Positions 156 through 16,731 of a stretch of DNA of 64,000 bases are shown here, piece after piece (the first letter of the stretch is position 1; every line of letters begins with the position of its first letter). Origin of the DNA: Edaphobacter paludis. Its GTDB lineage: Bacteria > Acidobacteriota > Terriglobia > Terriglobales > Acidobacteriaceae. The notes beneath the pieces are model-generated. The model did not search any database and was not told where the DNA came from. It was given only the letters and a program-made list of their open reading frames with translations. The stretch lies in contig NZ_CP121194.1 of the NCBI RefSeq assembly GCF_039993895.1, forward strand, positions 62,001 to 126,000, in the 5' to 3' direction. Made by a program: the position numbers and the translations under genes.

Positions 156-815
156 GTGTCGGTCCCTGTTTCTTTTTCGAGGGAGGTGGATGTGGGTTAT
201 TTATTGCCGGCGGAGTATGTGCAGTACGGGTTGACGGCGGAGACGACGGACAATTGGGTGACGATGGCGTCTGCGCTGATGGAAGCGTATTGCCGCCGTC
301 CTAGCCTGATGGTGACGCAGTATGTGGAGCGGGTGCGGCTGACGGCAGGTGCGCAGACGGCGCGCCTGAGCTATCGTCCACTGGCTGCGGCGGCGGGTGC
401 AACTTCGGCGCTGGTAGGCGTTAACGTGCGCTACGGACGGCCCCGACGAGGTGAGTTGCCGGATCCCTATCGCGAGCAGATTGCCTGGGCGTTCAGCGTG
501 CCGGGAAGTTGGAATGCGTTAGACGTGGCCAGCGTGGATGTGAACGAGACGACGGCGGAGTTGACGTTCCCGATTAACTTTCTTGGGCTGAACTACAACG
601 AAGTCGAGGTGACGTATACGTCGGGGCTCGTGACCATTCCGGATGCGGTGAAGGTGGCCTGCGTGCAGATTGTGAAGAATGCACAGGCGACTCCGGCGAT
701 GAATGTGAAGTCAAGCCGGATAGACACGATGCAGATGCAGTACTTCAGTGGGTCGTTGATCGATGCCCAGGTGCAGTTACTGCTGCGGCCTTATGTAGCC
801 GAAAGGCTCGGGTGA
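156..815 (+). CDS. Phage head-tail connector (gp6-like) protein
   Basis: The gene encodes 219 residues from a GTG start at 156. The N-terminal part (DNWVTMASALMEAYCRRP, about residues 30-50) resembles the helical region of gp6-like DNA-packaging/connector proteins. These form the ring under the portal that joins head and tail. The following 4-bp gap to the next gene and the downstream tail-terminator-like and tail-tube-like genes fit the standard head-to-tail order. At 219 residues it is roughly twice the size of minimal gp6 proteins, with a beta-rich middle and C-terminal half that I cannot assign. The connector role is inferred from resemblance and neighbours. Confidence 0.55.
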   Translation: MSVPVSFSREVDVGYLLPAEYVQYGLTAETTDNWVTMASALMEAYCRRPSLMVTQYVERVRLTAGAQTARLSYRPLAAAAGATSALVGVNVRYGRPRRGELPDPYREQIAWAFSVPGSWNALDVASVDVNETTAELTFPINFLGLNYNEVEVTYTSGLVTIPDAVKVACVQIVKNAQATPAMNVKSSRIDTMQMQYFSGSLIDAQVQLLLRPYVAERLG

Positions 816-819
816 CGCG

Positions 820-1251
820 ATGGCTGATCTGATAAGCAACCCGGATGCGGCGCTGCGGTTTGCGGAGACGTTGCTTCGCGGAGTGGGCGGCCGGTCTGTC
901 GTGCTTCGCATGCCGGCTACGGCAAGCGCGGGTGATGTGACCGAGCAGTTGGGGCTGGCGGTGCCCCAGTTTCAGGATGTGGAACTTGCTCCCGTAGTCT
1001 TCCGTTCAGCGCGGGCGCGTGTCGTGGAGGGCAAGGCCGCGAGATGGGAGTTGCTGGTCTCTGGCTGCGCGGTGCAGGCGCTGACAGGGTCGTTGGGATT
1101 TGGCGCGGCGGAGTCGATGTTTGCTGCGGCGTTTGGCGTGTTGATCGATGGCGTGCTGATGACGGTGGAATCGGCCACGGCGGCGGAGGTAGAAGGCGCG
1201 GCTTATCTGTACCGGCTCGTATTGCACGCTCCCGTTGCGCAGGCGGTTTAG
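820..1251 (+). CDS. Phage protein of unknown function at the head-tail adaptor position
   Basis: The gene encodes 143 residues beginning MADLISNPDAALRFAETLL. It starts 4 bp after the connector gene and is followed by the tail-terminator-like gene, so it is co-transcribed with virion morphogenesis genes. I see no catalytic motif, signal peptide or membrane segment. In comparable modules this slot holds a head-closure or adaptor protein. The product could be that, or a small structural protein specific to this phage type. Several frames are open in this stretch because of high GC; this one is preferred for its tight spacing and its phage-gene context. Confidence 0.5.
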   Translation: MADLISNPDAALRFAETLLRGVGGRSVVLRMPATASAGDVTEQLGLAVPQFQDVELAPVVFRSARARVVEGKAARWELLVSGCAVQALTGSLGFGAAESMFAAAFGVLIDGVLMTVESATAAEVEGAAYLYRLVLHAPVAQAV

Positions 1252-1290
1252 TCCGATTGACGAAATTGTATCGAGAAAGGTTACAGATTA

Positions 1291-1785
1291 ATGCAGAACG
1301 CAAAAGATACGTTTTATACCACGCTGCGCGACCGGCTGGCGGCGGTAAACCCGGCGCGCACGATAGTCGTGAGAGGCGTGACCCGGCCGGCGGTGCTGGT
1401 CGAGGAGAACGAGCTGCCTTCTGATGCTGTGCCGGTCGATGCGTTTCGGCTGCGCTGGGTGGGGCTGAAAGCAGATCCGAATGGCGCGCAGCCGCTGGTG
1501 ACGATGAGCTGCGAGATCCGCTACGCGACCGATGGGAACTCTGGCAATGGCGGCATGGATCGCGGGCGTCTGTTGGCTGGGATGGATGCGGAGCTCGCCT
1601 CGGCCGTGAGCGAACATCCTCGAAGTGCGGTGAAGATGAGTTATTCCGCTGCGCCGCCTGTGGCCATGGGTACGAATGTGTTCTGGGGTGACGTCGCATT
1701 CAGCGCGGCTGCAACGACAGGTGAGCGGCTGGAGCGGGTGGCTACGGTGGAAGTTTTTTGCTACCAGGAAGCGGGTGAGCTGTGA
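1291..1785 (+). CDS. Phage tail-terminator/tail-completion-like protein
   Basis: The gene encodes 164 residues starting MQNAKDTFYTTLRDRLAAV, with a helix-plus-beta-sheet character typical of tail-completion proteins. These cap the tail tube and join it to the head. Its stop overlaps the start of the tail-tube-like gene by 4 bp (GTGA), so the two are translationally coupled. It follows connector-type genes by 39 bp. Assignment rests on order and general fold character rather than a diagnostic motif. A minor tail protein is the main alternative. Confidence 0.45.
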   Translation: MQNAKDTFYTTLRDRLAAVNPARTIVVRGVTRPAVLVEENELPSDAVPVDAFRLRWVGLKADPNGAQPLVTMSCEIRYATDGNSGNGGMDRGRLLAGMDAELASAVSEHPRSAVKMSYSAAPPVAMGTNVFWGDVAFSAAATTGERLERVATVEVFCYQEAGEL

Positions 1786-2747
1786 GTGGATTGGTTGATG
1801 CAGTAGCTCCGGTGACGCGGAGGGTAAGGGCATATTTTGCTCCGGTGAACCGCGCAGCAGGCGTGCCCGCGATCTTTGACGCGGCGCAGATGGGCAGCTT
1901 TGAACTGGACGTTCCAACAGCTCCGTGGGTGGATCTGGGATGGTGTTCGGGGTTCGCTCGGAAGTGCGCAACCAAGGTTGCGCCGCTGCGAACAGGCGCT
2001 CCGGCGGTGGTTCAGACACAGGTCCGGACAGAGCTCGAGGCCACCGTTTCGCTCGAGTTTGAGAGCTGGGGGAAGTTGCAGATGGCTCTCGCCGCTGGGT
2101 CGCAGCAGATGAATCTATTGGTGACGGCGGCAGGCGCGGCGGCCAATGGAAGTGGTGGCACCGCTGCTGCTCCGGTCCCGCTCGTTGCCGGATCTACAGC
2201 GGCTTCGCTGAATGTCGGCACGGCGTCTGGTTCTTTTAACGTCGGTGATTTGGTAGTTGTCGATGTGGACTATGCGGGGCAGGTTGGCTTTGTGGGCAGC
2301 GGAGTGAGCGCGGCATATGTCGCTTCGGCAACTGCGGTTAATGGAGATGTGAATTATGTGCGGCGCGTTTCGCTGAATGTTGCGCGAGTGATCGCGATTG
2401 CGAGCGGTGCGTTGCAGCTTGGCACGCCGCTGCTGGCGGGGGCTCCGGCAGCGGGTATGCAGGTGAGCAAGCTGGTTGGGTTTGTCGATCGCGAGGGCGG
2501 CGGATGGTTTCAGGAGTGGTCTGCGCTGTTTGTCCTGGAGGGAGAGCAGGGCGACCGGGTGATCTATCACTATCCGCGGTTGCAGGCGATGCAGGGATCT
2601 GCGGAGTCCATGGTGGCATTGGCAGCGCCGCTGGAGCGAGTAAGGCTGGCGGGGGCATTTCGCGCGCTGCCGGTGAAGGATGCTAACGACGGCGAGACGG
2701 TGGTTTGTTTCCGGAGCTATCTGCCGGGAGCGATGCGAGCGGTTTAG
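1782..2747 (+). CDS. Phage tail-tube-like structural protein
   Basis: The gene encodes 321 residues from a GTG start at 1782 that overlaps the preceding stop. The sequence is beta-rich, with long Gly/Ala/Val/Ser stretches and a central domain (about residues 130-240) that looks like an inserted beta domain. Tail-tube proteins of siphophages and myophages sit just after the tail terminator, as here. A tape-measure gene would be expected next but is absent; a large secreted fibre-like gene follows instead. Alternative: a generic major tail or decoration protein. Confidence 0.5.
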   Translation: MSGLVDAVAPVTRRVRAYFAPVNRAAGVPAIFDAAQMGSFELDVPTAPWVDLGWCSGFARKCATKVAPLRTGAPAVVQTQVRTELEATVSLEFESWGKLQMALAAGSQQMNLLVTAAGAAANGSGGTAAAPVPLVAGSTAASLNVGTASGSFNVGDLVVVDVDYAGQVGFVGSGVSAAYVASATAVNGDVNYVRRVSLNVARVIAIASGALQLGTPLLAGAPAAGMQVSKLVGFVDREGGGWFQEWSALFVLEGEQGDRVIYHYPRLQAMQGSAESMVALAAPLERVRLAGAFRALPVKDANDGETVVCFRSYLPGAMRAV

Positions 2748-2846
2748 ACAAAGGATTAGTATCGATCAAAAACGAGAGCCGATCGCGATGGGCACGGCGA
2801 AGCGCGGATCAGGAACAGACAACGGCACGAACGAATTACAGAGGTC

Positions 2847-2878
2847 TCTCGACAGCGCCCTTTGGGCCTTCGTCGAGA
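2847..2878. repeat. Intergenic hairpin with GATGACG tail
   Basis: TCTCGAC at 2847-2853 pairs with GTCGAGA at 2872-2878, and inside it GCCC (2857-2860) pairs with GGGC (2864-2867). The right arm runs on into TGACG. Similar tails follow the hairpins near 46395 and 31490, so this may be one copy of a dispersed intergenic repeat. It lies between the tail-tube-like gene and the fibre-like gene, and there is no T-run that would make it a clear terminator. Confidence 0.45.
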
Positions 2879-2909
2879 TGACGTGTCTGTCAGGATGAGG
2901 AGGACGGGG

Positions 2910-5900
2910 ATGGTTTGGAAGCTTAGACGATGGACGTTGGTGGGGATGCTGCTGGCGGTGATGACTGTGAGTGCAGCCGCGCAGATTGCTACCACTTCGG
3001 TTACAGATACAGTTTACCGTGCGGATGGAACGGCGGCCACAGGCACAGTGCTTGTGAGTTGGCAGGCGTTTACGACTGCGTTGGGACAATCGGTGCCGAG
3101 TGGAAGCGCGTCTGCGACGATTGCAAGCGGTGGTGTGATGAGCATTGCGCTGGTTCCCAATGCCGGAGCTACGCCGATGGGGAGTTACTACACGGCGGTG
3201 TATCACCTGGATGACGGGACGGTGAGCCGTGAGTTCTGGGTGGTTCCGGCTAGCCAGACGCCGGTGCAGGTCAGCGCGATCAAAAATTCCGTGTTGCCGA
3301 CTTCGGTGGCGATGCAGACCGTGAGCAAGAGCTACGTGGACACGGCGATTGCAACTGCGGTAGCGGGACATCCGCTGGATAGCACCAATCCGTATGTTTT
3401 GAAGAGCGGAGATACGATGGCGGGTCCGCTGGTGCTGCCCGGCGATCCCGTAACGGCTACGCAGGCCGCCGACAAGCATTATGTGGATGCGAGTATCGCC
3501 GGAGTTGCAGGTGGACTGGGGCAGAAGGTCTCGGAGTTGCCAGCCGGGTCGCAGATCATCTCTCAGCCCGTCGGCACAAATCTGGATGTTAACAAACTGA
3601 ATGGCGTGGTCTATGCCAGCCAGTATGTGAACGGACAGGGAAACAACGGCATCGCAAATTCGCTGGCCAGTTCGGACTGTGCGAACGGCTGCGATATCAA
3701 TATCGAACCGAGCTATGCTTCCACTGAAAACTACACGCCTTCAACATGGAACAGCAGTATCGGTGGCGGGACACATATTGGGGACCAAAGGAACGGTGCG
3801 CGACGAGATAGCTATTTCAATCCGGTAAACATGTTGGGGCCTGGCCTCGATGCGGGGCAGGTGCTGGATGTTCAATCGACACGGAGCGCGGCAAGCGTCT
3901 TTCAAAACGAACGAGCTGAAGAGCCCAGCTCCTTTGGACTGATGATTTCCCACGAGGGCCTTACTGGCGGGTCGAACCTGTTTCCAGCATCGATTGAGAG
4001 CACACCCTATTTCAAGAGCAATTACGCGGCACTGTCGGTGACGGGAACATACAACACGATGGGGCAGCATGTTCTTGCGCCGAAGCAGATCAACTGTTTC
4101 GGCGTTGGAGATTGCCTGATCGGCTCGCAATTTATTTTGGCTTCGGGCGGCTTTCGCGATGAGGCGGATGAGGGAGCGCACCCGATGGACCTGCAGATAC
4201 AGGAAGATACGCGGGTGTTTCAGGGCACATGCAGCTCGGGTTGCACGACGGGATCGACGACGGTTGCGGTGGCAGTGACCTCTTCGCCGGGCACGCAGGG
4301 AGAAGGACGATACCTGATCGACAAGAATCCGGCGGATGTCATGACGGCGGGATCTCTGACGAGCGGAACTCCGACAGTGGCGGGGACGCCGGGAGCCACG
4401 GCGAGCTTTAGCGGAACGAACTTTCCGGTGAGCGTCTTCTTTGAGACGGCGCAAATGATTCCATCGCAGGCGAACAACGTCGCTCCGGGAACGGTGACCG
4501 TAACGCTGGCGACGAGCGGCGTAGTTGCGGGTTTTGCGACGAATACGTCGGTGGCCCCCAGTCAGAGCGGCGTGGCCTGTGTCGTGGACCAGCCGTTCAG
4601 CACCGCTCCCCACAACTACGAGATGGGGAACTACACGGTGATCGATGGCACACATCTGCAGATGACACTGAACAAACCGCACCGCGCCGGGGCGACGATT
4701 GCGATGGGCGGGCTATGCGGCTATGGGCTGGAGCAGACGGTGGATACGGCCAATGGTATTCGACAGGTGTTCCCTGTGATTGGGTCCTACTCGCCGACTG
4801 GCCTCTATTATGCCGGTGGGTTGACGACGATTGTAGGCATCAGCGGCCTCACCAGCGGTTTTTTGAATCTGAGCGCCTCGATTGCCTCGATCACGCGCAA
4901 CAACAATGTAGTAACGGTAACGACGGCGGGAAATCTGCCGGTCGATGTGAATAAGCTGACGCTGACGGTCTCCGGAGTGGCGGACTCGAGCTACAACGGC
5001 AGTTTCCCGGTGACAACGACCGGAGCGAACACGTTGACCTATGCCAATGCAGGCGCAAACAGCACCAGCACCGGAGGCACGGTGGCTATACTGACTGGCG
5101 GCTATGCCCTCTATCCCATGGCGGAGGTGCTGGGCGTATTCGATGCAGCGACCAAGACGATAGACGGACAACTGACATTGGCGCCGAACACGGTGCCCTG
5201 GGCGGTGAACGATCCGGTAGAAGAGCCGCATTACTACCAGGAGAAGGTAGCTGCCGACGCTACCTATGTGGGGCAGACGATGCCGCGACCGCTACTCAGT
5301 CAGGAAGCCGGGATTCAATATCAGTTGGGGGCCGGGCCCGGATTGTCGGGTTGGTCGATCAGCAATATGGTGCCGGTCTCGAACTACCTGGGCAACGGAG
5401 GAACCCATACGATGCCTTTTGCGGCCTATCTAGCGAAGGGCATCTGGCAGACGACCATGGATGCACAGGCTGGGGACAGCAGCGTATTCGCAATCCACTG
5501 CAACTCGCATGGCTGCGGAAGGTGGAACTCGATCTACAACCTGTTTCAACTGGACAGCGCTGCCAGCGTCGACACCATCAGCTTTCAGCCGTTGACCAGC
5601 GCGTTGACGATGACGCTGCGCGGGACGAGCTATGGATTCACGCCACAGGCATTGACCGCGGGAACCGTGAATGCGACGACCGTGAATGCAACGACGCTGA
5701 ATGGAACCGTAAATGCGATGCAGGTAAGCGGAACCCTCGGTGCTTCACAGTTGCCGGTATTCGGAGCCTCCGGTAGCGGGCACGCGGCGGGCGCGGTGCC
5801 TGACCCTGGCGCTGCGGCAGGGTCGACGCGCTATCTGCGGGAGGATGGAACCTGGGCGGCTGTGAGCGGGGCCAACAGCGGCATGGCTGGCCAGCTCTCG

Positions 5901-7451
5901 GCCAATCTGCTCGCGCGCTATGCGCTGACCGATGGCAGCGGAGCGCCACAGGATACAAGTGGCAACGGCAACAACGCAACGCTTCCGGGCGGAACGGCGA
6001 ACCCGGCGTGGACGTCGCAGGGAATCTCCTGCAATGGCACTTCGCAGTACTTCGGCGCGACTGGCACCAAGACAGCAAGGACGTTCGTATGGGCATCGAC
6101 GTTGACTCCGCAGCTCAATGCGGCTCTCCCGGCAGGGGCGCAGTTTGTCTCGGCGTTTGGTGTGCCGGACCTGAGTGTTGTGTTTGGCGGCAGCTACTAT
6201 GGGCATCATCCGGCAGTAGCCCATGCCGGAACCTACGGCGATATGAGTAACGACACGCTGCAGGGCACGCACACCTTTGCCCTGACGTTGGGAACGAATA
6301 GTTCTACGGACCCCAATGTGTTCTATATCGACGGCATGCCGACTACTTATATCTCCTCTCGTGCGGCGGCTGCGGCACTGGCCACCGCAGACTACCAGGT
6401 ATGCGGAATGAATTCCGGGTACTCCACTTATTTCGGCGGAAATTTTTATTACTTTGAAGCGTTCTCCGACGAGAAGACACCAACGCAGATTCAGCAGGAG
6501 ACCGCCGCGGTGACGCAGGTGGTCAAGAGTCGCGGGGTTGCGTACAACACCGTTCCCAGCGCCGCGACCAAGGATCTGTATATCGCCGTGGGCGATTCGC
6601 TGACGAACGGTGAAGGGGTCAATCCTTCAAGCCAGTACATCGCGCCAACGGACTCGTTCGACGTGCTGAACTATGGGCTGGGTAACTCCGATAGCGATGA
6701 CCTGTTCGAGCTGTTCGATGCCCGGGAGGCGCCGCTGTACCGGCACAACGCGGGCAGGAACGTGATCCGGCTGTGGGTGGGAACCAACGATGTGAGTACG
6801 CGAGGCAGAACGCCGCAACAGGCGCTCGACGGCATTCGCGCGTATTGCAGAAAGGCGAAGGCAGTAGGATTTCAGACCATCGTCTCGGACATGATTAGCC
6901 GGACGGGTAACGACAACAATATGCTGGCGCTGGATACATTGCTGACAACGCAGGATACAGGATGCGACCTGATGCTCGACCTGGCATCGGATGCACGCAT
7001 TGGAGCGGTGGGCGCGAATACAAACGCGTCTTACTTCCAGAGCGATAACACTCATCTGAACCAGGCTGGCCAACAGAACATCGTTGCACCGGCGGAGACG
7101 CGGGCAATCAACCTGCTGTCCCATCTGAAGGGAACGCAGACCAGCCCAACGGTGACGGCGGCAATCTACACGATGGCGGACTATGACCTGTATCTTCCGG
7201 TAAGTCCTGCGGCGAACTCTGTCGCGGTAACGCTGCCGGACTGCAACTACTTTACCGGCATGACGCACTCGATCAAGAACGTACAGACGACGGGCGCTAA
7301 TGCGGTTACGGTGGTTCCGGCAGTAGGCCAGTTGGTCGACGGGTCAGGATCTGCCGTGGCAATTGCGAACGGAGCGACGCTGGTTCTGCGGCCGGTGGTG
7401 CTGAATCGTACGACTGCGGGGTGCAGTTGGCTGAAGGTCAGCAATAACTAA
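2910..7451 (+). CDS. Secreted fibre-like protein with LamG-like and SGNH/GDSL hydrolase domains
   Basis: I chose the ATG at 2910, which has AGGAGG six bases upstream and yields a clear Sec signal peptide (positive MVWKLRR, hydrophobic core, SAAAQ cleavage region); the product is 1513 residues. Residues about 162-192 carry a phage tail-fibre motif (KSGDTMAGPLVLPGDP, then ADKHYVDA). A concanavalin/LamG-like domain covers about 1000-1180. An SGNH hydrolase domain follows, with block I GDSLTNG (about 1228), GTND (about 1290) and DNTHLN (about 1378) supplying the Ser, Gly/Asn and Asp-His residues. The C-terminus resembles tail-fibre tips. A likely role is binding and de-esterifying surface or environmental polysaccharide. 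A Sec signal is odd for a virion protein, so it may instead be a host-exported cargo product. The terminator right after it suggests an independent transcription unit. Confidence 0.8.
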   Translation: MVWKLRRWTLVGMLLAVMTVSAAAQIATTSVTDTVYRADGTAATGTVLVSWQAFTTALGQSVPSGSASATIASGGVMSIALVPNAGATPMGSYYTAVYHLDDGTVSREFWVVPASQTPVQVSAIKNSVLPTSVAMQTVSKSYVDTAIATAVAGHPLDSTNPYVLKSGDTMAGPLVLPGDPVTATQAADKHYVDASIAGVAGGLGQKVSELPAGSQIISQPVGTNLDVNKLNGVVYASQYVNGQGNNGIANSLASSDCANGCDINIEPSYASTENYTPSTWNSSIGGGTHIGDQRNGARRDSYFNPVNMLGPGLDAGQVLDVQSTRSAASVFQNERAEEPSSFGLMISHEGLTGGSNLFPASIESTPYFKSNYAALSVTGTYNTMGQHVLAPKQINCFGVGDCLIGSQFILASGGFRDEADEGAHPMDLQIQEDTRVFQGTCSSGCTTGSTTVAVAVTSSPGTQGEGRYLIDKNPADVMTAGSLTSGTPTVAGTPGATASFSGTNFPVSVFFETAQMIPSQANNVAPGTVTVTLATSGVVAGFATNTSVAPSQSGVACVVDQPFSTAPHNYEMGNYTVIDGTHLQMTLNKPHRAGATIAMGGLCGYGLEQTVDTANGIRQVFPVIGSYSPTGLYYAGGLTTIVGISGLTSGFLNLSASIASITRNNNVVTVTTAGNLPVDVNKLTLTVSGVADSSYNGSFPVTTTGANTLTYANAGANSTSTGGTVAILTGGYALYPMAEVLGVFDAATKTIDGQLTLAPNTVPWAVNDPVEEPHYYQEKVAADATYVGQTMPRPLLSQEAGIQYQLGAGPGLSGWSISNMVPVSNYLGNGGTHTMPFAAYLAKGIWQTTMDAQAGDSSVFAIHCNSHGCGRWNSIYNLFQLDSAASVDTISFQPLTSALTMTLRGTSYGFTPQALTAGTVNATTVNATTLNGTVNAMQVSGTLGASQLPVFGASGSGHAAGAVPDPGAAAGSTRYLREDGTWAAVSGANSGMAGQLSANLLARYALTDGSGAPQDTSGNGNNATLPGGTANPAWTSQGISCNGTSQYFGATGTKTARTFVWASTLTPQLNAALPAGAQFVSAFGVPDLSVVFGGSYYGHHPAVAHAGTYGDMSNDTLQGTHTFALTLGTNSSTDPNVFYIDGMPTTYISSRAAAAALATADYQVCGMNSGYSTYFGGNFYYFEAFSDEKTPTQIQQETAAVTQVVKSRGVAYNTVPSAATKDLYIAVGDSLTNGEGVNPSSQYIAPTDSFDVLNYGLGNSDSDDLFELFDAREAPLYRHNAGRNVIRLWVGTNDVSTRGRTPQQALDGIRAYCRKAKAVGFQTIVSDMISRTGNDNNMLALDTLLTTQDTGCDLMLDLASDARIGAVGANTNASYFQSDNTHLNQAGQQNIVAPAETRAINLLSHLKGTQTSPTVTAAIYTMADYDLYLPVSPAANSVAVTLPDCNYFTGMTHSIKNVQTTGANAVTVVPAVGQLVDGSGSAVAIANGATLVLRPVVLNRTTAGCSWLKVSNN

Positions 7452-7456
7452 GTTAC

Positions 7457-7486
7457 GAGACGCGGCTTCATGCGAGGCCGCGTCTC
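7457..7486 (+). terminator. Rho-independent terminator after the fibre-like gene
   Basis: A perfect 10-bp stem, GAGACGCGGC (7457-7466) with GCCGCGTCTC (7477-7486), extends by one more C-G pair, has a 10-nt loop and is followed by CTTTGTC. It begins 6 bp after the stop codon of the fibre-like gene, so it probably ends that transcript before the terminase gene. The T-run is short. Confidence 0.7.
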
Positions 7487-7507
7487 GCTTTGTCTGGGGG
7501 GACAAAT

Positions 7508-9001
7508 GTGGAGATGGGTGGGATGACCGAGGAGCAGTGGAGCGTAGAGGATTTGCTGAAGTATGGCAGGGAGATGAACGAGCAGCCTGAGAAGATATTT
7601 GAAATCGCGGGGAAGCTACTGAAGGTGCGGGACCGGGAGGGGGTGGAGCGGCCGCTGTTGCCGAATGCAGTGCAGGAGGAGTTTGAGCGCAATCGTGGGC
7701 AGCGGAATATCGTGTTGAAGGCGCGGCAGATGGGCATCACAACCTGGGTGGCGGCGCGCTTCTTTTTGAAGACGATCACTACTCGCGGCGTGATGACGGT
7801 ACAGGTGGCGCATACCCAGGGAGCGGCGGAGGGGATCTTCCGCATGGTGCAGCGTTTCTGGGAGTGTCTGCCGGAGAAGCTGCGCGAGGGGCCGCTGAAG
7901 CGCAGCAGGGCGAACTCGGGGCAGATGCGCTTTGCCGCGCTGGACAGCGAGTTTCGCGTGTTGAGCGCGGGCGATGAGGGCGCGGGGCGCGGCCTGACCA
8001 TGCAGAACCTGCATTGCAGCGAGGTGAGCCGATGGCCCCGCGCGGCAGGGGAGACGCTGGCGGGGCTGCGCGCGGCGCTCGCTCCGGGCGGCGAGCTGGT
8101 GATGGAGTCCACGCCCAACGGAGCTTATGGCTGCTTCTATGAAGAGTGGGGGCGGGCGGGTTCGAACGGCGTGGTGCGGCATTTCTTTCCCTGGTGGCTG
8201 GAGAAGGATTATGTATCTTCTGCGGTTACAGAATTTACCGAGGAAGAGCAGGCGCTGATGCTGGCGCATGAGTTGACGCCGGAGCAGATCGGCTTTCGGC
8301 GCGGACTGGAGGCGAACTATCACGGACTGCGTTCGCAGGAGTTCGCGGAAGATTCAGAGACCTGCTTCAAGGCCACGGGCGATTGCTGCTTTGAGGCTCC
8401 GGCGGTGGAGGCGCGGCTGGCCCAGCTGGACGAGCCGACGGAGATGCGACACAACGGAGCGTTGCAGGTGTGGCTGCCTGCAATACCGGGCAGGAAATAT
8501 CTGGTGGCGGCCGATCCGGCGGGGGGCGGCATGGACGGTGACTTCGCCGTGGTGCAGGTCATCGATATGGAGTCGGGCATGCAGTGCGCAGAGTTGCAGC
8601 AGCGGCTGGCTCCGCTGGACCTGGCAAAGGCAGCAGCCAAGCTGGCCCGGGAGTACAACGGTGCGATGATCGCGGTGGAGCGCAACAATCATGGCCATGC
8701 AGTGCTCGCCTTTCTAAGTACGGTAGAGCACTATGCCTATGTGTATGGCCAGGGTGGCGACGCGGGATGGCTTACCTCGGCGGGCAGCAAGCCGGGCATG
8801 GTCAGCCGGATGGGTGCGCTGCTGGTGGAGTCGCCGTTGATGTTCTCCAGCAGGAGATTGCTGGCGGAGTGTCGTACCTATATCTCGCTGCCCGGAGGCG
8901 GGACCGGCGCAGCCAACGGAGCGCATGACGATTGCGTGATGGCGATGGCGATCGCGCAGGCGGTACGCGCTGAAATGATTGTGAAGATGAAGAAGAGATA
9001 G
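7508..9001 (+). CDS. Phage terminase large subunit
   Basis: This is the ATP-driven DNA-packaging motor with headful/cos nuclease. The ATPase domain shows the Walker A-type segment LKARQMGITTW near residue 75. The RNase H-like nuclease domain shows AADPAGGGMDGD (about 335), VERNNHG (about 385) and NGAHDDCVMA near the C-terminus, giving the expected acidic residues. I prefer GTG 7508 because GGGGGGA lies five bases upstream, giving 497 residues; TTG 7490 and ATG 7523 are possible. A terminator precedes it, and it is followed by a palindrome and a HipA-like kinase gene before the portal gene, whereas terminase and portal genes normally adjoin. No small terminase subunit is visible. Confidence 0.92.
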   Translation: MEMGGMTEEQWSVEDLLKYGREMNEQPEKIFEIAGKLLKVRDREGVERPLLPNAVQEEFERNRGQRNIVLKARQMGITTWVAARFFLKTITTRGVMTVQVAHTQGAAEGIFRMVQRFWECLPEKLREGPLKRSRANSGQMRFAALDSEFRVLSAGDEGAGRGLTMQNLHCSEVSRWPRAAGETLAGLRAALAPGGELVMESTPNGAYGCFYEEWGRAGSNGVVRHFFPWWLEKDYVSSAVTEFTEEEQALMLAHELTPEQIGFRRGLEANYHGLRSQEFAEDSETCFKATGDCCFEAPAVEARLAQLDEPTEMRHNGALQVWLPAIPGRKYLVAADPAGGGMDGDFAVVQVIDMESGMQCAELQQRLAPLDLAKAAAKLAREYNGAMIAVERNNHGHAVLAFLSTVEHYAYVYGQGGDAGWLTSAGSKPGMVSRMGALLVESPLMFSSRRLLAECRTYISLPGGGTGAANGAHDDCVMAMAIAQAVRAEMIVKMKKR

Positions 9002-9192
9002 TGTCCTGCCGGACGGGCCTCCTGCGCGGAGGGCGGTCACTTCGTGACTTGTATACCTTTTCTGGGCGAGGAAAAGGTACGGGGCCTCCCGTTGGTCGGC
9101 AACGATACTTGATCCCGACCAACGGGAGGGCCACCCGAAGGCGTACACGAGTCACGAAGTGACCGCGCAGCGGGCCCTGTCCGGCAGGACAC
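9001..9192. repeat. 190-bp nested palindromic element
   Basis: The outer arms are GTGTCCTGCCGGAC at 9001-9014 and its exact complement GTCCGGCAGGACAC at the right end (9179-9192). Inside, GGTCACTTCGTGACT at the left matches AGTCACGAAGTGACC at the right. Next comes a small hairpin, CCTTTTC with GAAAAGG (near 9057-9076). In the centre a 15-bp perfect arm, 9085-9099, pairs with 9115-9129. The whole element can fold into one long cruciform. It starts at the terminase stop codon and ends just before the HipA-like gene. It has no coding capacity of its own and resembles a MITE or a structured mobile or regulatory repeat. Confidence 0.8.
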
Positions 9193-9224
9193 GGGGTTTA
9201 TCCTGTTGCCCAGGGGTAAACGGC

Positions 9225-10091
9225 TTGGCGGTTCTGGCGGTGCAGGCGATTCGAAGGATGCGGGGCGGGGCGCAGAGCCAGTTGATGCTGGGGGCCGACG
9301 GCAAGCTGTGGGTGGTGAAGTTTCAGAACAATCCGCAGCACCTGCGCGTGCTGGCGAATGAGCTGATTGCTACTCGTCTGGCGGCGGCGGTGGGCCTGAC
9401 CGTCCCTGTGAGTGATGTCGTTGAAGTAACGGAATGGCTGGTGGCGAACACGCTCGACATGCAGGTGGAGCTGGGACACAGCGTCCGCTATAAATATGTT
9501 GCCGGGTTGCAGTTTGGGTCGCAGTTCGTGGGCGGCCTGATGCCGGGGCAGGTGGTGGACTATCTGCCCGAGCAGCAGTTGGATGAGGTGAGGAACCTGG
9601 CGGAGTTTGCCGGAATGCTCTGCATCGATAAGTGGGCGGGCAACTGCAATGGGCGGCAGGCAGTGTTTGAACGCAAGCCGCGAGAACGGAAGTATCGAGC
9701 AACGTTTATCGATCAGGGCTTCTGCTTCAACGCGGGCGAGTGGACGTTTCCCGATTCACCGCTGCGTGGCGTCTATCAGCGCAACAAGGTGTATGCGCGG
9801 GTGACCGGCTGGGAGAGCTTTGAGCCGTGGCTGAGCTGTGTGGAGGCGATGGACGCAGGCGTGCTGTGGGAGATTGCGGAGGCGGTTCCTCCGGAGTGGT
9901 ACGGCGGAGATACGGCTGTGATCGAGCGGTTGATGGAGCAGATGCTGACGCGGCGGTCGCGGGTGCGAGAGTTGATTGCGTCATTTCGGGATTCGAATCG
10001 GGAGCCGTTCCCAATGTGGGATACAGGGAAGCGGATTGTTGTGCCGAGGCAGTTCGCGGAGATGAGTGGAGCGGGTAAGTTTGTGATGTAG
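9225..10091 (+). CDS. HipA-like kinase (HipA_2 type)
   Basis: The product is about 288 residues with a protein-kinase-like HipA fold. IRRMRGGAQSQLM near the N-terminus is the family's phosphate-binding loop region, and WVVKFQNNPQ holds the ATP-binding lysine. DKWAGNCNGRQAVF (about 135) is the catalytic loop with Asp and Asn, and FIDQGFCFN is the metal-binding Asp segment. I chose TTG 9225 with AGGGG upstream; the open frame extends to GTG 9159, but that lies inside the palindrome and adds unrelated sequence. A DUF3037 gene follows 44 bp downstream, a pairing I recall for this kinase type. It lacks the full-length HipA N-terminal domain. It interrupts the usual terminase-portal order, so it is probably phage cargo (toxin, immunity or exclusion). 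The target is unknown. Confidence 0.75.
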   Translation: MAVLAVQAIRRMRGGAQSQLMLGADGKLWVVKFQNNPQHLRVLANELIATRLAAAVGLTVPVSDVVEVTEWLVANTLDMQVELGHSVRYKYVAGLQFGSQFVGGLMPGQVVDYLPEQQLDEVRNLAEFAGMLCIDKWAGNCNGRQAVFERKPRERKYRATFIDQGFCFNAGEWTFPDSPLRGVYQRNKVYARVTGWESFEPWLSCVEAMDAGVLWEIAEAVPPEWYGGDTAVIERLMEQMLTRRSRVRELIASFRDSNREPFPMWDTGKRIVVPRQFAEMSGAGKFVM

Positions 10092-10135
10092 TGGATTGGT
10101 TGATGGATTGCTAATGGTTTAAAGAGGAGACGGTC

Positions 10136-10984
10136 TTGAAGGAACGGTTGCCGTGCGAGTTCTTCCTGATCCGGTATGTGCCGGATGTGGTGAAGGGCGA
10201 GTTTACGAACATCGGGGTTGTGCTGCGAGAGGCCGGAGACGTTGCGTCCGATGCAGCGAAGCCCGAGCACGCGGTGGTACGTTTTACGCGGGACTGGAGC
10301 CGCGTGCGGTGCATGGATGCGGATGCCGACATCGGCCTGCTGGAGGCGTTGGAGGGTGAGATCGCGGAGCGGTTGCGAATGAGCGCAACCGATCCGAAGC
10401 CGGTGCTGGCTTTGCTGGAAGACACGCTTTCGAATTCGGTGCAGATCTCGCCGCCGCGGGCTTCGCTGGCCGAGAGTATGGCAGCGGAGATGGAACAGTT
10501 GATGCGCATGTATGTCGAGCCGCTGAAGATTAAGGTTGAGCGTCGTCGAACGGGGCGCGCAGCCATCGCCGGAGCGATGCGGACGGAGTTTGAGCGCGCC
10601 AGGGTTTGGGCCCTGATGCGGAAGCGAATTGCGGCTTCGCTCTATACGCGGCCCGGCGATCCGATGAAGATCGACTGCGGCTATCGACCGAATGGTGTGA
10701 TTCGAATGTTTCAGGCTGTGTCGCTCGAAGGCGATGTGGAGGCGGCCAAGGGGTTGGCTTATTCGGCTCCGCAGTTGCGCGAGGGCGTGCTTCGGGTGGA
10801 GAGCGCAAAGCTGGAGTTGACGGCGGTGGTCGAGCCTTTGCGGTCGGTGTCGGATATTGAGGACGAGGCGATGGAGCGGTACCGGTTCGGCGTCGAGGCG
10901 ATGGAGCGACAGGAGATTCGCGTGGTGACGGTAAGCGATCTGGCGCGGGTGGCGGAGACGGCGCGGGTGGAGTTGCGGGTTTGA
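10136..10984 (+). CDS. DUF3037 family protein, partner of the HipA-like kinase
   Basis: The gene encodes 282 residues from TTG at 10136, with AAAGAGGAGA upstream as ribosome-binding site. The N-terminus CEFFLIRYVPDVVKGEF followed by TNIGVVL is characteristic of DUF3037 proteins. The C-terminal half is Arg/Glu-rich with no recognisable catalytic motif. It sits 44 bp after the kinase gene and is followed by a terminator, so the two form a unit. Biochemical function is not known to me. In such pairs it could be an antitoxin, a kinase substrate or an adaptor. At 282 residues it is longer than short DUF3037 proteins, so the C-terminal part may be a second domain. Confidence 0.75.
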   Translation: MKERLPCEFFLIRYVPDVVKGEFTNIGVVLREAGDVASDAAKPEHAVVRFTRDWSRVRCMDADADIGLLEALEGEIAERLRMSATDPKPVLALLEDTLSNSVQISPPRASLAESMAAEMEQLMRMYVEPLKIKVERRRTGRAAIAGAMRTEFERARVWALMRKRIAASLYTRPGDPMKIDCGYRPNGVIRMFQAVSLEGDVEAAKGLAYSAPQLREGVLRVESAKLELTAVVEPLRSVSDIEDEAMERYRFGVEAMERQEIRVVTVSDLARVAETARVELRV

Positions 10985-11087: not shown

Positions 11088-12326
11088 ATGGGAGTTCGGA
11101 CGATGGTGAAGGATGTGTGGCAGAAGCTGGCGGGCGTTGAAGCAGCAACAGGCACGGCGGTTGGGGAACGGAAGACGACGATGCTGCCTTCGATCTTTAC
11201 GCCCTACAACCAGGCCGGGCGGACGGGGCAGAGTGCGTTGCCGAAGCCTACACCGGCGAACCTGCGGAAGTTTGCCGAGACGCCGGTGGTGCGGCGGGCG
11301 ATCAACGTGGTGAAGGACAAGATCGCCAGCATGGACTGGCAGATTCGCGTGCGCAGGGGCTATGACGCTGCGAGCGTAGCGGACGCAAGCGCGCGACTGA
11401 ATGCGCTGCGGCTCTGTCTCGAGGAGCCGAATGCTTCGGACAGTTTTCGCGTGTTGTGGGAGCAGGTGCTGGAGGACCTGCTGGTCGGCGGATTTGGCGC
11501 GGTGGAGATGGAGGCTACGGGCGATGCGCTGCGGCCATTTCATCTCTGGGCGGTGGATGGGGCGACGATCCAGATCGACAGCAAGTGGGATGGCGATCCC
11601 GCAAAGCCGCGATACGCGCAGGCGACGGGGCAGTTGGGACGCGAGGGGTTGGTCCCTCTGCTGGATGATGAGCTGATGTACGTGCGGCTGAATCCGCGCA
11701 CGCATACTCCGTTTGGGCTGGGGCGGCTGGAGGTCGCATTCGAGACGGTGAATCAGTTCCTGAGCGCGAACCGTTATGCGGGGCGACTCGCGTCGAACTC
11801 TGTCGTGCAGTATGCGCTGTGGCTCAATGAGGCTACGCCCGAGCAGCATGACCGCCTGATTCGCTGGTGGCAGGACGAGATCGAAGGTACGGGCCGCGTG
11901 CCTTTGCTGAGTTGCGAGCAGAAGCCCGAGGTGCTGCGGTTTGCCGGTGGAACCGATGCCGACCTGCGGCTGGCATGGCAGGAGATGCTGATTCGGCTGA
12001 TTGCGAATGCGTTCGAGATACCTCCGATGCTGTTGGGATTGCAGGAGGGCCTCAACCGCTCGACTGCTGGCGAGCTGGCGGACGAGGCGTTCCAGAGCGC
12101 GATTGTGCCGGTGGCGAAGCTGCTGGCCGAGCACATCACACGCGACATCTTTGCGAAGAAGCTGGGCTGGCGCGAGTTCGAGTTCTGCTTCAACGATCTC
12201 GAGAGCAGGGACGAGACCGAAGAGCTGCAGATACAGACGGCACTGCTGCATGCGGGTGTGCTGACGGTGGATGAGGTGCGGCAGATGCGCGGACTGGCTC
12301 CGCTTACAACCGGGGAGGCGCAGTGA
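11088..12326 (+). CDS. Phage portal protein
   Basis: The gene encodes 412 residues. Portal proteins form the dodecameric DNA gate at the capsid vertex. The sequence has the family's features: TPVVRRAINVVKDKIASMDW early (about residues 65-85), an extended middle, VNQFLSANRYAG, and a C-terminal PPMLLGLQEGLNRSTAGELA segment seen in HK97/lambda-type portals. GAGAGAGGTGAGG precedes the ATG at 11088. Its stop overlaps the next start by 4 bp. A portal downstream of tail genes and of a kinase cassette is not the canonical order and implies rearrangement or cargo insertion. Confidence 0.85.
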   Translation: MGVRTMVKDVWQKLAGVEAATGTAVGERKTTMLPSIFTPYNQAGRTGQSALPKPTPANLRKFAETPVVRRAINVVKDKIASMDWQIRVRRGYDAASVADASARLNALRLCLEEPNASDSFRVLWEQVLEDLLVGGFGAVEMEATGDALRPFHLWAVDGATIQIDSKWDGDPAKPRYAQATGQLGREGLVPLLDDELMYVRLNPRTHTPFGLGRLEVAFETVNQFLSANRYAGRLASNSVVQYALWLNEATPEQHDRLIRWWQDEIEGTGRVPLLSCEQKPEVLRFAGGTDADLRLAWQEMLIRLIANAFEIPPMLLGLQEGLNRSTAGELADEAFQSAIVPVAKLLAEHITRDIFAKKLGWREFEFCFNDLESRDETEELQIQTALLHAGVLTVDEVRQMRGLAPLTTGEAQ

Positions 12327-14641
12327 AGATCACGATCGATAATCTCGATGGCATGGGCGCGGTGGATTACAGCGGCACCGTGTGTGCGGACAGCCCGCTG
12401 AAGATCGAGCGCGTGCTGAACGCCCCTTCGCGGTGCAGCGGGATGCTCGATATCAGCGCCGAGGCGCTGGCTGCACCTGCACGACGCGGGCGCGTGGTGG
12501 TGACGTCGGATAACGGAACGATTCTGTTTACGGGCTATGTGGCGACGGAACCGGAACGCGTCTATGCCGGCGTGGCGACGATAGGGCCGGTGTATCGCTA
12601 TGCGTTCAGCGCGATCAGCGACGAGTGGCTGCTGGACAAGCAGGCGACTCCGTTGAGCGGAGCCGGATTTGCGCTGCCGGGAGGGCAGGTGCTGACCACG
12701 CTAACCAACCGTGTCGACTGCGGCTTGTTCACGACCTCAGGTGTAGAGGGCGGCGCAAAGGTTGGCGTCTTTGAGCCGATGCAGACCGAGACCTGGTCGG
12801 GGAATGCAGGCCGCGTTGCGGACGCGATCTATGCGGCGTATCGCGTGCTGAATGGCGCGGTGACGATGCAGCCTGCGGGCGCGGTGACTCATGCTTTGAG
12901 CGATGGCGATGGGACATTGCAGATTGCAGCTTTGAAGACATCGGCAGTGAAGGAGCTGGCCAATGACGTGACCGTGAGCGGCGAGATGGAGCCCGCGGCG
13001 TACATCACCGAGGCCTTCGCGGGAGACGGCGCGACGACTGTGTTTCAGTTGGCGCAGACGCCGTTTCGTCCAAAGAAATCGGCCAACTCTTCGCGGCTGT
13101 TATCGGACAGCTTCAACGAAGGCGCATTTAATTCGCGAGTGTGGCAGCTCACCGATCCGGGCGCACACCTTGGATTTGGCGCATCGGGGCTGGCGATGAC
13201 GGGAGGCAACGGATTCGATGGGCAGACGACCCTGACCGCTATCGACGGGGTGGAGATGGGCGGATCGCTGGTGATTGAGGCAGGAAATCTGCAACTTGGT
13301 GGGGCCAGCACCGGCGTGGTGTGCGGGCTTTACGGTGGCGCGACGCTGAGCGCGAACTGCCTCGCGGGTTACAACGTGAGACAGAGCGACGGCGCAACGG
13401 TCGTCGTGCCGTTGGTGAATGGGGCAGAGGCGGGTACGGTGTTTACGCTGCTGAGCGGACACACCTATACGCTGCGCATTCGGTTGCATTGTGTCGAGGC
13501 ACAGCGGGTCTTGCAGGCGTACTACGCAATGGTGGATGGCGCGGTGCAGCAGTTCGGCGGCGGCGTGGTCGCGGCTCCCATGAGTGTTGTGTTTGAGCTG
13601 CAGGACCTGGGCGCGTCTTCGAATACACCAGCGACGTTGTTGTACGACGGTGCAGTGGCGACTTCGACGGCGAGTTGCAGCTTTGTTGCGGTGAACAGCG
13701 TGCAATTGTTTGGGTCCATGGGCTACTGCAGAGTGACGCAGACGGGATCGGCGTGGGTGACGAGCACGCTTCCCAGTGGAACAAGAGTGACCCGGTTGAT
13801 TGGCGTGGCGGGGGAGGGTGTGGATTGCACGGTATCTGCAACTGGCAAAGTTACATTTATGGCGGGTCGCATTCCGGTTGCAGGAGAAATTGTAACTGTA
13901 ACGTATCGTGGACAGCAGAGAGCAGTGGCGCGGCTGGAGAATGCTGCGAGCATTGCGGCGGAGGCGGCGGGCGGAGCGCCAGGTACGGCGCAGTGGCTTG
14001 GTAAAGTTACCTCGCCGGCGGCGCGCAGCTCGATGGACTGCGAGAACGCCGCGCTGGCGGTGCTTAGCTTTTCGGCCAGCCGCGCTGCGGCGATTGCGGG
14101 AACGTATGAGGCGGGGAATCCTGCGGATATCTGGCCGGGTGACGTTCTCGCCATTGCGAGCGGTGGCGAAACCATGAATGTCATCGTCCGCCGTGTGGAG
14201 GTCGCTAATGAATCCGCGTGGCCGGAGATGTTGACCTATCGCATCGCCTTTGCGAATGACTGGGCCGAGGGGCTGGGGCTGAAACTGTCGGAGGCGATTG
14301 CGGCGGATGCTCTGCTGCCGCAGACGGCGCTGACTACTGTCGGCAACGTGCTTGCGAACCTGCAACAGTTACAAATTGTGAGTGCTACCGGCACCACGCT
14401 GCAGTTGGATGCTGGCATGGCTCCTCCTGCGGGCGGTGGCTTGGAGGTACGACGGCGCGACTGGGACTTTGGGCCAGGCGTCGATCAGGATCTGGTGCTG
14501 CGCAGTCCGGTGCGGAATTTTTCGATTCCGCGCGAGGCACAGATAGAGCGGTACTACGTGCGGATGTACGACGGTTCGACGCCGCCGCTATATTCGCGAT
14601 TTTCGAGTGCAGTGTTTACGGATTTACCGGTGGGATCATAA
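12323..14641 (+). CDS. Large phage tail/baseplate protein with an inserted jelly-roll-like domain
   Basis: The gene encodes 772 residues from a GTG start overlapping the portal stop. The N-terminal third (MKITIDNLDGMGAVDYSGTV onward) and the C-terminal third (residues about 545-700) look like a split tail-hub or baseplate protein that puts domains on either side of a spacer. Residues about 255-420 (SFNEGAFNSRVWQLTDPG onward) look like a concanavalin/LamG-type beta domain, a plausible carbohydrate-binding insertion. No signal peptide is seen. The role as an adsorption-apparatus component is inferred from size, beta content and position after the portal gene. No exact family is recognised. Confidence 0.55.
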   Translation: MKITIDNLDGMGAVDYSGTVCADSPLKIERVLNAPSRCSGMLDISAEALAAPARRGRVVVTSDNGTILFTGYVATEPERVYAGVATIGPVYRYAFSAISDEWLLDKQATPLSGAGFALPGGQVLTTLTNRVDCGLFTTSGVEGGAKVGVFEPMQTETWSGNAGRVADAIYAAYRVLNGAVTMQPAGAVTHALSDGDGTLQIAALKTSAVKELANDVTVSGEMEPAAYITEAFAGDGATTVFQLAQTPFRPKKSANSSRLLSDSFNEGAFNSRVWQLTDPGAHLGFGASGLAMTGGNGFDGQTTLTAIDGVEMGGSLVIEAGNLQLGGASTGVVCGLYGGATLSANCLAGYNVRQSDGATVVVPLVNGAEAGTVFTLLSGHTYTLRIRLHCVEAQRVLQAYYAMVDGAVQQFGGGVVAAPMSVVFELQDLGASSNTPATLLYDGAVATSTASCSFVAVNSVQLFGSMGYCRVTQTGSAWVTSTLPSGTRVTRLIGVAGEGVDCTVSATGKVTFMAGRIPVAGEIVTVTYRGQQRAVARLENAASIAAEAAGGAPGTAQWLGKVTSPAARSSMDCENAALAVLSFSASRAAAIAGTYEAGNPADIWPGDVLAIASGGETMNVIVRRVEVANESAWPEMLTYRIAFANDWAEGLGLKLSEAIAADALLPQTALTTVGNVLANLQQLQIVSATGTTLQLDAGMAPPAGGGLEVRRRDWDFGPGVDQDLVLRSPVRNFSIPREAQIERYYVRMYDGSTPPLYSRFSSAVFTDLPVGS

Positions 14642-14647
14642 GGGGGC

Positions 14648-14866
14648 ATGATGACAGAGTTTGAAGGACAGGTGCTGGCCGACCTGAGTGTTTTGAAGAG
14701 CCAGATGCAGCAGGTGATGGGGATAGGCCAACCGGGACGCTTGACGCAACTGGAAGAACGCGTGGAGCGGCATGAACGCAGCATGCAGAGGATGAAGGGT
14801 TTGTTTACCGCTGCCGGTGGCCTGGTGACGATGGTTCAGGTCGCGGTGGATTATTTTCGTCGCTGA
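14648..14866 (+). CDS. Small coiled-coil protein with C-terminal membrane helix (XhlA/holin-like)
   Basis: The gene encodes 72 residues. An amphipathic, probably coiled-coil segment (about 5-48, with LTQLEERVERHERSM) is followed by one hydrophobic helix (GLFTAAGGLVTMVQVAVDYF). This layout matches small XhlA-type holin partners of phage lysis modules, and it is the last gene of the phage block. It lies 6 bp after the tail gene, with AAGGGGG upstream of the ATG. No lysin follows; the nearest lysozyme gene is about 8 kb away on the other strand. Function is inferred from architecture. Confidence 0.55.
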   Translation: MMTEFEGQVLADLSVLKSQMQQVMGIGQPGRLTQLEERVERHERSMQRMKGLFTAAGGLVTMVQVAVDYFRR

Positions 14867-15031: not shown

Positions 15032-15538
15032 ATGAATGCCGAGCCGCTGATAGGAATTGTGATGGGGAGCCGCAATGATTATGCGGTGATGAAGGGCGCC
15101 GTCGAGGTGCTGAAGGAGTTCGGCGTGCCGCACGAGGTGCGTGTGGTTTCGGCGCATCGCACGCCGGAGCTGCTGTTTGAATACGCCGATGCGGCGATGG
15201 GACGCGGTCTGCGGGCGATCATCGCGGGCGCGGGTGGCGCGGCGCACCTGCCGGGAATGCTGGCGGCAAAGACCGTGGTTCCCGTGCTGGGCGTGCCGAT
15301 TGCCGCGACGGCGTTGCAGGGGATGGACTCGCTATTGAGCATCGTTCAGATGCCGAAGGGAGTTCCCGTGGCGACGCTGGCGATTGGAGCGGCGGGCGCG
15401 GCAAATGCAGGACTTCTGGCGATTGCCATGCTGGCTACAACCGATCCGACGTTACGGTTGAAGTTGGTGGAGTGGCGTGCGGCACGACGAGACGAGGTAC
15501 TGGGGCAGGTGGTTGGGGAAGATGAGGCCGGCGCGTGA
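15032..15538 (+). CDS. purE: N5-carboxyaminoimidazole ribonucleotide mutase
   Basis: PurE class I converts N5-CAIR to CAIR in purine synthesis. The 168 residues contain the PurE signatures: the substrate loop near residue 11 (GSRNDYAVM), VVSAHRTPE with the catalytic His, [12 protein letters not shown], and [17 protein letters not shown]. The first loop has Asn where most PurE proteins have Ser (GSxSD), a small deviation. The stop overlaps purK's GTG start by 4 bp, so the two are translationally coupled, and PurK supplies its substrate. The upstream region is the inverted repeat at the phage boundary. Confidence 0.95.
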
Positions 15539-16731
15539 GCTTGTCTAAATCCAAAAACAAAATACAGACAGCAAAGCCGATTCTTCCTGGCGCGACGATT
15601 GGGATCTTTGGTGGCGGGCAACTTGGGCGCATGACGGCCATGGCGGCGCGCGCGATGGGATATCGCATTCTTGTGCTCGATCCGGACCCGGCTTGTCCGG
15701 CACGGTTTGTGGTGGATGGATGCATCGAGGCGGGGTGGGACGATTCGCGCGAGGCGGCGAACCTGGCTCGTGGATGCGATGTGGTGACGCTCGAGATTGA
15801 ACAGATTGCGGCGGCAAGCATGGAGGCTGCGGCAAACTTTGCTCCGGTACGTCCGAGCGGCGCGATGCTGGCGATCATTCAGAACAGGATTGAGCAGAAG
15901 GACTGGCTGCGGCGCAACGGGTTTCCCCTGGGAGAGTATCGCGCGGTGCAGTCGATCGATGAGTTGCGCAGCGCGATTGCCGAGCTTGGCGGCAGATGTT
16001 TTTGCAAGAGCGCGACTGGCGGCTACGATGGGCGCGGACAGGGCAAGGTTGGGTTTGCCGCGGGAGCTTCGTTTGAAGATGAAGTACGCGGCGCGTGGGC
16101 GGCTTTGGGAGAAGGCCCGGGCGTGGCGGAGAAGGCGATTGAATTGGATCGCGAGATCTCGGTGATGGTGGCGCGTGCTCCCAATGGCGAGGTGAAGGTC
16201 TTTTCGCCGGCGTTGAACCACCACGAGGATCAGATACTTGCGTGGAGCGTGATGCCTGCTCCGCTACCCGAGGCGATGGAGACCGAGGCGCGCAAGATCG
16301 CCGAAGAGATCGCGGACACGTTTCAGCTTGAGGGCGTGCTGGCGGTCGAGATGTTCTGCACGAAGGACGGGCGGCTGCTGGTGAATGAGCTGGCTCCGCG
16401 ACCGCATAACAGCTACCACGCCAGCGAGCGGGCCTGTGTGACCAGCCAGTTCGAACAACTGGTGCGTGCGGTCTGCGATTTGCCGCTGGGCGATGTGGAG
16501 ATCGTGCAGCCTGCCGCGATTGTGAACCTGCTGGGCGAGGTCTGGCTGAACGAGGATGGTACGGCGCGGGAGCCGAAGTTTGATGAGGCGCTGGCGGTGC
16601 CGGGGGTAAGGCTGCATCTGTATGAGAAACATCGTCCGCGCAAGGGGCGGAAGATGGGGCACCTTTCGGCTGTGGGCATGACGGCGGAAGAGGCGGTGGA
16701 ACTGGTGTTGAAGGCTAAGGCGCTGCTGTAG
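15535..16731 (+). CDS. purK: N5-carboxyaminoimidazole ribonucleotide synthase
   Basis: PurK uses ATP and bicarbonate to carboxylate AIR. The 398 residues show the ATP-grasp layout: N-terminal [12 protein letters not shown] (about 22-33), ATP-binding [17 protein letters not shown], and metal-binding [21 protein letters not shown] with HNSYHASE. It starts with GTG at 15535, overlapping purE. The N-terminus has about 20 extra residues ([19 protein letters not shown]) before the Rossmann segment. It is followed by a 600-bp stretch with no conserved gene. Confidence 0.95.

Follow-up and report, generated by a model that had tools for sequence, protein, structure and literature searches.

Tail fibres are normally built and attached in the cytoplasm, and the locus described here raises the question of why a fibre-like gene lying among phage structural genes should open with a Sec export signal, and what the exported protein might do. 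The window (the whole 64,000-nucleotide stretch of Edaphobacter paludis DNA that was analysed) begins 62 kb into a 4.04-Mb contig, and the gene in question lies close to its left end. The gene and its flanking elements are as follows, with the basis of each assignment in brackets:

2841..2888, + strand: upstream hairpin with a genome-wide interspersed, REP-like repeat (fold and repeat count)
2898..2903, + strand: Shine-Dalgarno sequence AGGAGG (sequence)
2910..7451, + strand: fibre-like protein of 1513 aa, predicted to be exported by Sec, with LamG and SGNH hydrolase domains (sequence and homologues)
2910..2981, + strand: Sec signal peptide, residues 1-24, with a predicted cut before Gln25 (sequence; kept in 20/20 same-genus orthologues)
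2982..5549, + strand: conserved anchor and stem, residues 25-880 (50-80% identity, 39 sequences)
3408..3431, + strand: GDTMAGPL fibre motif, residues 167-174 (sequence)
5877..6464, + strand: LamG-type jellyroll domain in the variable tip (model and fold searches)
6567..7130, + strand: SGNH hydrolase domain (Pfam, conserved residues, model and fold search)
6597..6599, + strand: codon of Ser1230 (within the SGNH hydrolase domain)
7456..7487, + strand: terminator-like hairpin 3' of the fibre gene, 14-bp stem (fold)

The start codon is the ATG at 2910, which follows the AGGAGG after a 6-nt spacer, and the protein begins MVWKLRRWTLVGMLLAVMTVSAAA and continues beyond a signal-peptidase-I-like site as QIATT, with n, h and c regions that can be told apart. 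A sequence-only reading of the window had assigned this gene both a perfect AGGAGG and a Sec signal, and both assignments stand, the signal being shared by all 20 same-genus orthologues. The open reading frame can be extended upstream as far as a TTG at 2862, and the conserved signal belongs to the AGGAGG start. The GDTMAGPL fibre motif that had been reported is indeed present at residues 167-174, and the gene does have the terminator of its own that had been ascribed to it, the 14-bp stem at 7456-7487; strong hairpins similarly follow the gene in most orthologues, several of them with T-tracts. The hairpin said to lie upstream of the gene is also there, but it is not a feature of the fibre gene: it carries an interspersed palindrome at 2869-2885 (core CGGTCGAGATGACGTG) that has 45 matches in the genome at no more than two mismatches versus 4 for a reversed control. 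Because its sequence recurs genome-wide, we regard this hairpin as a REP-like repeat that is not gene-specific, and its candidacy as a regulator was rejected.

Signals were called throughout by a simple signal-peptide rule and by inspection. Inspection found a signal at the N-terminus, before the conserved domain, in every one of the 20 same-genus fibre loci fetched. In the sequence-only reading, homologues without the N-terminal residues would have told against export; as far as sequence can show, the export reading passes this check, since homologues in the genus keep the signal peptide (20/20), and the cysteine counts described below agree. The rule was positive on 30 of 41 TerL-adjacent fibre genes, where most of the misses are truncated at the locus edge and two more have a signal that is evident by eye, versus only 5 of 581 other cluster genes. 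The fibres of other genera retain the signal even where the N-terminal domain behind it is unrelated (L089, L104, L124 and L132).

A separate line of evidence comes from cysteine parity. The mature signal-bearing fibres have an even number of cysteines in 30 of 30 homologues (2 to 20 cysteines each); these 30 are kin and do not amount to 30 independent trials, but their counts range widely and unrelated N-terminal types are among them. About half of the cytoplasmic neighbour proteins have an even count, the even/odd numbers from the same loci being 36/31 for TerL, 15/26 for the HipA-like protein, 32/28 for DUF3037, 34/26 for the portal, 28/48 for the tube and 60/26 for the adaptor. Within the genus twelve fibre cysteines are conserved, mostly as close pairs, and ten of the twelve fall in residues 25-880. 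Because the counts are even and the conserved cysteines paired, the fibre would be expected to fold with disulphides outside the cytoplasm; its pattern is that expected of a disulphide-bonded protein folded there, and points to one. Export is therefore a well supported prediction, resting on two lines, the conserved signal and the cysteine parity, and because the export signal is conserved we file the protein as fibre-like and not as an ordinary fibre.

What the exported protein might do is suggested by its layout. In the homologue alignment residues 25-880 are 50-80% identical, and the tip is mostly about 35% identical. The tip has a Pfam GDSL_2 hydrolase match at residues 1226-1389 (E 8e-5, under the curated cut-off), and residues 881-1513, when modelled with AlphaFold (mean pLDDT 75), gave matches to LamG/ConA-like domains and to SGNH esterases. 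The sequence-only reading had named a LamG domain and an SGNH hydrolase in this fibre-like protein and proposed structure prediction as a check; the tip model contains a jellyroll of LamG type together with an SGNH esterase fold, and the catalytic residues are present. All of 32 homologues (mostly about 35% identical to this protein) share Ser1230, Gly1256, Asn1293 and Asp1379, and at least 90% of them have His1382; by these residues the domain is predicted to be an SGNH/GDSL hydrolase whose catalytic Ser, Gly, Asn and Asp/His blocks are kept. The SGNH esterase fold is found in viral receptor-binding proteins as well, for example those of Pseudomonas phages LIT1 and KPP21, and we know of no Sec signal in such proteins. 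Secreted SGNH esterases (polyvinyl alcohol esterase 9kr1, YxiM 2o14 and PbeAcXE 7toh) share both the fold and an exported life with the window protein, but they have neither a fibre stem nor a phage neighbourhood and are 12-16% identical to it.

Among solved structures, the N-terminal domain is matched best by the neck fibre of one phage, the neck of another phage, a lambda-type tail tip and a collar. These matches are marginal (best E 9e-4) and come from a low-confidence model of residues 25-880, of which we use the N-terminal part alone, and with caution. Relatives of this domain in other Acidobacteriota families adjoin phage tail-like genes and have signals (L206-L208), and others are found in host secreted proteins that have no phage neighbours (L210 and L211). 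The same genome also encodes, away from phage genes at L005:9484-12126 (- strand), a signal-bearing protein of 880 aa that is related to fibre residues 233-878, and its own neighbours (an acyltransferase and membrane proteins) look polysaccharide-related.

The fibre gene is one member of a block whose other parts are:

contig 61137-62108 (L006:1137-2108): putative capsid (position)
156..815, + strand: head-tail adaptor (phrog_442, E 3e-13)
820..1785, + strand: a pair of small conserved genes (820-1251 and 1291-1785), assigned from position to the connector or tail completion (synteny)
1782..2747, + strand: putative tail tube protein, by position (synteny)
7490..9001, + strand: terminase large subunit, TerL (Pfam Terminase_6C, phrog_2)
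9159..10091, + strand: HipA-like kinase, a fixed block member (Pfam HipA_2; synteny)
10136..10984, + strand: DUF3037 protein, a fixed block member (Pfam; synteny)
11088..12326, + strand: portal protein (Pfam Phage_portal, E 4e-51)
12323..14641, + strand: conserved protein of 772 aa, from its position a putative tail tip or hub (synteny)
14648..14866, + strand: small conserved protein at the block's right edge (synteny; kept in several decayed loci)
15032..16731, + strand: purE-purK, host genes marking the right boundary (directly downstream in 17/20 same-genus genomes)

Upstream of the window genes lie a CI-like repressor, a sigma-region-4-like gene, a protease-like gene, a coiled protein and the putative capsid, and a small protein in this upstream part of the block has a weak holin match. 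No family match was found for genes 820-1251 and 1291-1785, the tube at 1782-2747 or gene 12323-14641. The putative capsid has no match in Pfam, PHROG, PDB or INPHARED and no similarity to the annotated head protein of the phage Tunturi_5; identification by sequence was dropped for want of a database match, and the name is kept as putative from its position after the protease and the coiled protein.

The same block, consisting of repressor, sigma-like gene, capsid, adaptor, the two small genes, tube, fibre, TerL, HipA-like gene, DUF3037 and portal, is present at 20 of 20 same-genus loci, at one of which the repressor was not detected. The order in other genera is fibre, TerL, HipA-like gene, DUF3037, portal, protease, coiled protein, capsid, adaptor, tube and a gene like 12323-14641, after which come a small gene and then purE and purK. 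The gene order of our own genus differs from this and is therefore explained by a move of the block. The HipA-like and DUF3037 genes (window 9159-10984) stand between TerL and portal family-wide, rank with the block's most conserved genes, and may have a toxin-antitoxin, regulatory or packaging role. Inspection of the block open reading frames recognised no integrase, self-replication gene, tape measure or linked endolysin. A phage-type lysozyme gene (Pfam Phage_lysozyme, E 3e-43) does occur at window 22644-23192 on the - strand amid host genes, and the genome has another copy at a different place; the gene was considered as a block-linked gene and rejected, being sporadic in relatives (17/61 genomes).

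The distribution of these genes bears on how old the association is. The N-terminus of the fibre is found in 45 of 60 same-genus genomes, the source genome included, and the capsid, at 71-95% identity and with no stops, is single-copy in 88 of 150 family genomes that represent 52 of 79 genera; outside the family it is present in two genomes of one other family (58-61%), with the same block order. The site is likewise constant, purE-purK following the block directly in 17/20 same-genus genomes. Distances between block genes track those of purK (r 0.86 for the capsid, 0.88 for TerL, 0.84 for the portal, 0.89 for the tube and 0.64 for the fibre), and none of 2000 permutations gave values as high. 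The capsid has dN/dS values of 0.02-0.05 and the portal of 0.05-0.11; in the fibre they are 0.11-0.15 over residues 1-880 and 0.20-0.23 over the tip. Genomes that have no fibre or capsid have remnants at the same site (G030, G024, G025, G052, G405, G021, G035 and G049). We conclude from these comparisons that the block is, as judged by its sequences, an ancient, vertically inherited, GTA-like domesticated phage cluster under purifying selection. The description of the locus as a phage block in the sequence-only reading is therefore right as to its phage derivation, but the block is not an ordinary prophage, given its fixed site, single copy, tracking of purK and in-place remnants. Among the partly decayed loci, that of Edaphobacter aggregans (L069) retains the capsid and a signal-bearing fibre and has lost TerL to portal, and the L203 genome retains most structural genes and has lost the fibre.

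Gene transfer agents (RcGTA and its relatives; viriforms) resemble the block in being phage structural genes that are kept in a lineage by vertical inheritance under purifying selection, with no mobility genes seen. Gene transfer agents package and transfer host DNA in particles, and for the acidobacterial block such particles are hypothetical. Its gene content and order presumably differ from those of RcGTA, and an exported fibre is to our knowledge a feature of no GTA. The open-licence literature searched gave no description of Sec-exported fibres or of tailspikes with signal peptides, and on GTAs or domesticated prophages in Acidobacteria it gave only a 2018 prophage survey. In that survey (Eichorst et al. 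2018; PMC5900883) six acidobacterial genomes were described as having prophages of a "Cluster 153", which was counted as part of a potentially new viral group, and most such prophages were taken as likely active. Its member from KBS 89 (scaffold00005_5, 60-90 kb) coincides with our locus L067 (KB906758.1, 59-80 kb), and the cluster was thus partly reported in 2018 as a prophage group; the survey's account of it does not discuss vertical inheritance or signal peptides. Strain KBS 146 was prophage-free in the survey (PMC5900883), yet it carries the block here (L062).

Signal-bearing fibres are not confined to this block, and besides isolated phages they are found in prophage-like tail modules elsewhere in the Acidobacteriota. 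Two unrelated isolated phages of Tunturiibacter have them in their structural regions: gp12, gp13, gp14 (the tail spike), gp16 and gp17 of the podovirus Tunturi_1, and gp339 to gp342 of the jumbo myovirus Tunturi_5, open with Sec-like signals. Six large signal-bearing proteins of these phages have even numbers of mature cysteines (20, 10, 20, 32, 14 and 12), and the small gp16 has one. Like the window fibre, Tunturi_5 gp341 and gp342 and Tunturi_1 gp12-gp17 are long fibre or spike proteins with Sec-like signals, but they come from isolated phages. The LamG + SGNH tip of the window protein is homologous to gp342 (29.7% identity, E 2e-29), in which, unlike the window protein, LamG + SGNH is repeated twice; no homology was found between the Tunturi_1 or Tunturi_5 fibres and the conserved anchor of the window protein. 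Because isolated phages of the same host group have signal-bearing fibres, the signal of the fibre need not mean that it has left phage service. The fibre and tail genes of Tunturi_3 and Tunturi_4 that were checked have no signals, so export is not obligatory in Tunturiibacter hosts, and the non-signal fibres of Tunturi_3 have low or odd cysteine counts. Runs of neighbouring genes nearly all of which have Sec-like signals were seen at L164:10371-23028 in Tunturi_1 and L162:1124-9435 in Tunturi_5, and they include the annotated tail spike and two tail fibres.

The explanation that we favour, at a probability of roughly 0.5, is that the protein is an exported receptor-binding fibre of a GTA-like particle system and docks on particles as they exit the cell. 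The particle system would be phage-derived and vertically inherited by Acidobacteriaceae, with this gene as its receptor-binding fibre; the fibre would be made as a Sec precursor, lose its signal peptide and fold with disulphides outside the cytoplasm, its N-terminal domain would then dock on particles leaving the cell, and the variable LamG + SGNH tip may bind and deacylate a surface polysaccharide of recipient or sibling cells. That particles are made, that they carry the fibre, when it attaches and on what substrate it acts are parts of this proposal that we infer. In its favour are the conserved signal, the even cysteines, the intact catalytic residues, the fixed syntenic locus under purifying selection, the resemblance of the N-terminal domain to neck, collar and tail-tip proteins of phages, and the signal-bearing fibres or spikes of Tunturi_1 and Tunturi_5. 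The fibre also has, as far as can be judged from sequence, the layout of a particle component: a constant anchor and a variable tip, with a gene that is always part of the structural block and tends to be lost when the block is. Against it are the locus that has a fibre without TerL or portal (L069), the one with structural genes and no fibre (L203), the host secreted proteins that share the N-terminal domain (L210, L211), the lack of signals on the Tunturi_3 and Tunturi_4 genes, the origin of the neck-fibre match in a low-confidence model, and the fact that no tape measure or linked endolysin was recognised.

The main rival, to which we would give a substantial minority of the probability, is a surface or secreted esterase that joins no particle and works on the envelope of the cell itself, its exopolysaccharide or its surroundings. 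The enzyme might, for example, deacetylate the capsule and in this way allow released particles to adsorb to the population or to leave it, or it might exclude other phages. The conserved Sec signal, the disulphide signature and the active-site residues would all be expected of such an enzyme as well, and the host secreted proteins with the N-terminal domain (L210 and L211), the signal-bearing relative of residues 233-878 beside polysaccharide-looking genes in the same genome, and the retention of the fibre in L069 without TerL or portal speak for it. However, the fibre gene keeps its place among the structural genes and mostly disappears together with them, the protein has a fibre layout with a variable tip, and isolated phages bear the same kind of gene in their structural regions. 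An ordinary tail fibre assembled in the cytoplasm, whose hydrophobic N-terminal stretch plays no part in export, would fit the fibre architecture and is not at odds with a signal called by a simple rule and inspection, but we consider it very improbable: the n, h and c regions and an Ala-X-Ala-Gln-like site are kept in diverged homologues, cysteines are even in 30/30, the rule is positive on 5/581 control genes, and the fibres of Tunturi_3 that have no signal show low or odd cysteine counts.

Two further readings concern the block as a whole. That it is a recent mobile prophage whose fibre gained a host signal peptide by chance fusion could be argued from the phage structural genes and CI-like repressor, and from the earlier survey's reading of the same kind of locus as a prophage (PMC5900883), but this is hardly tenable: a single copy at one fixed syntenic site and remnants in place show that it is not a young prophage, purK-tracking divergence and the absence of a recognised integrase among the block open reading frames inspected add to this, and with its main point refuted the ordinary young prophage was rejected. 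The loss of most of the block from several genomes and the lack of a recognised tape measure could instead indicate a decaying relic with no present function, which seems to us improbable, since dN/dS is well below 1 in every gene tested, the capsid has no stops across 88 family genomes, and the catalytic and paired cysteine residues are retained.

More generally, and at somewhat less than even odds, some Acidobacteriota phages and this domesticated particle system may be assembled in two compartments, with heads and tails made in the cytoplasm and fibres exported by Sec, oxidised outside and fitted to particles on release, some of the fibres possibly being supplied by other cells. If this is true, fibres would be put in place by a different assembly route and could be shared between particles and cells in a dominant soil phylum. 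The cluster would, in addition, make a candidate for a gene transfer agent of the Acidobacteriota.

The putative capsid also has 71-74% identical copies in three large viral contigs (L159, L160 and L161; 89 to 214 kb), outside the usual neighbourhood of the block, and because of these copies a related capsid appears to circulate in large soil phages too.
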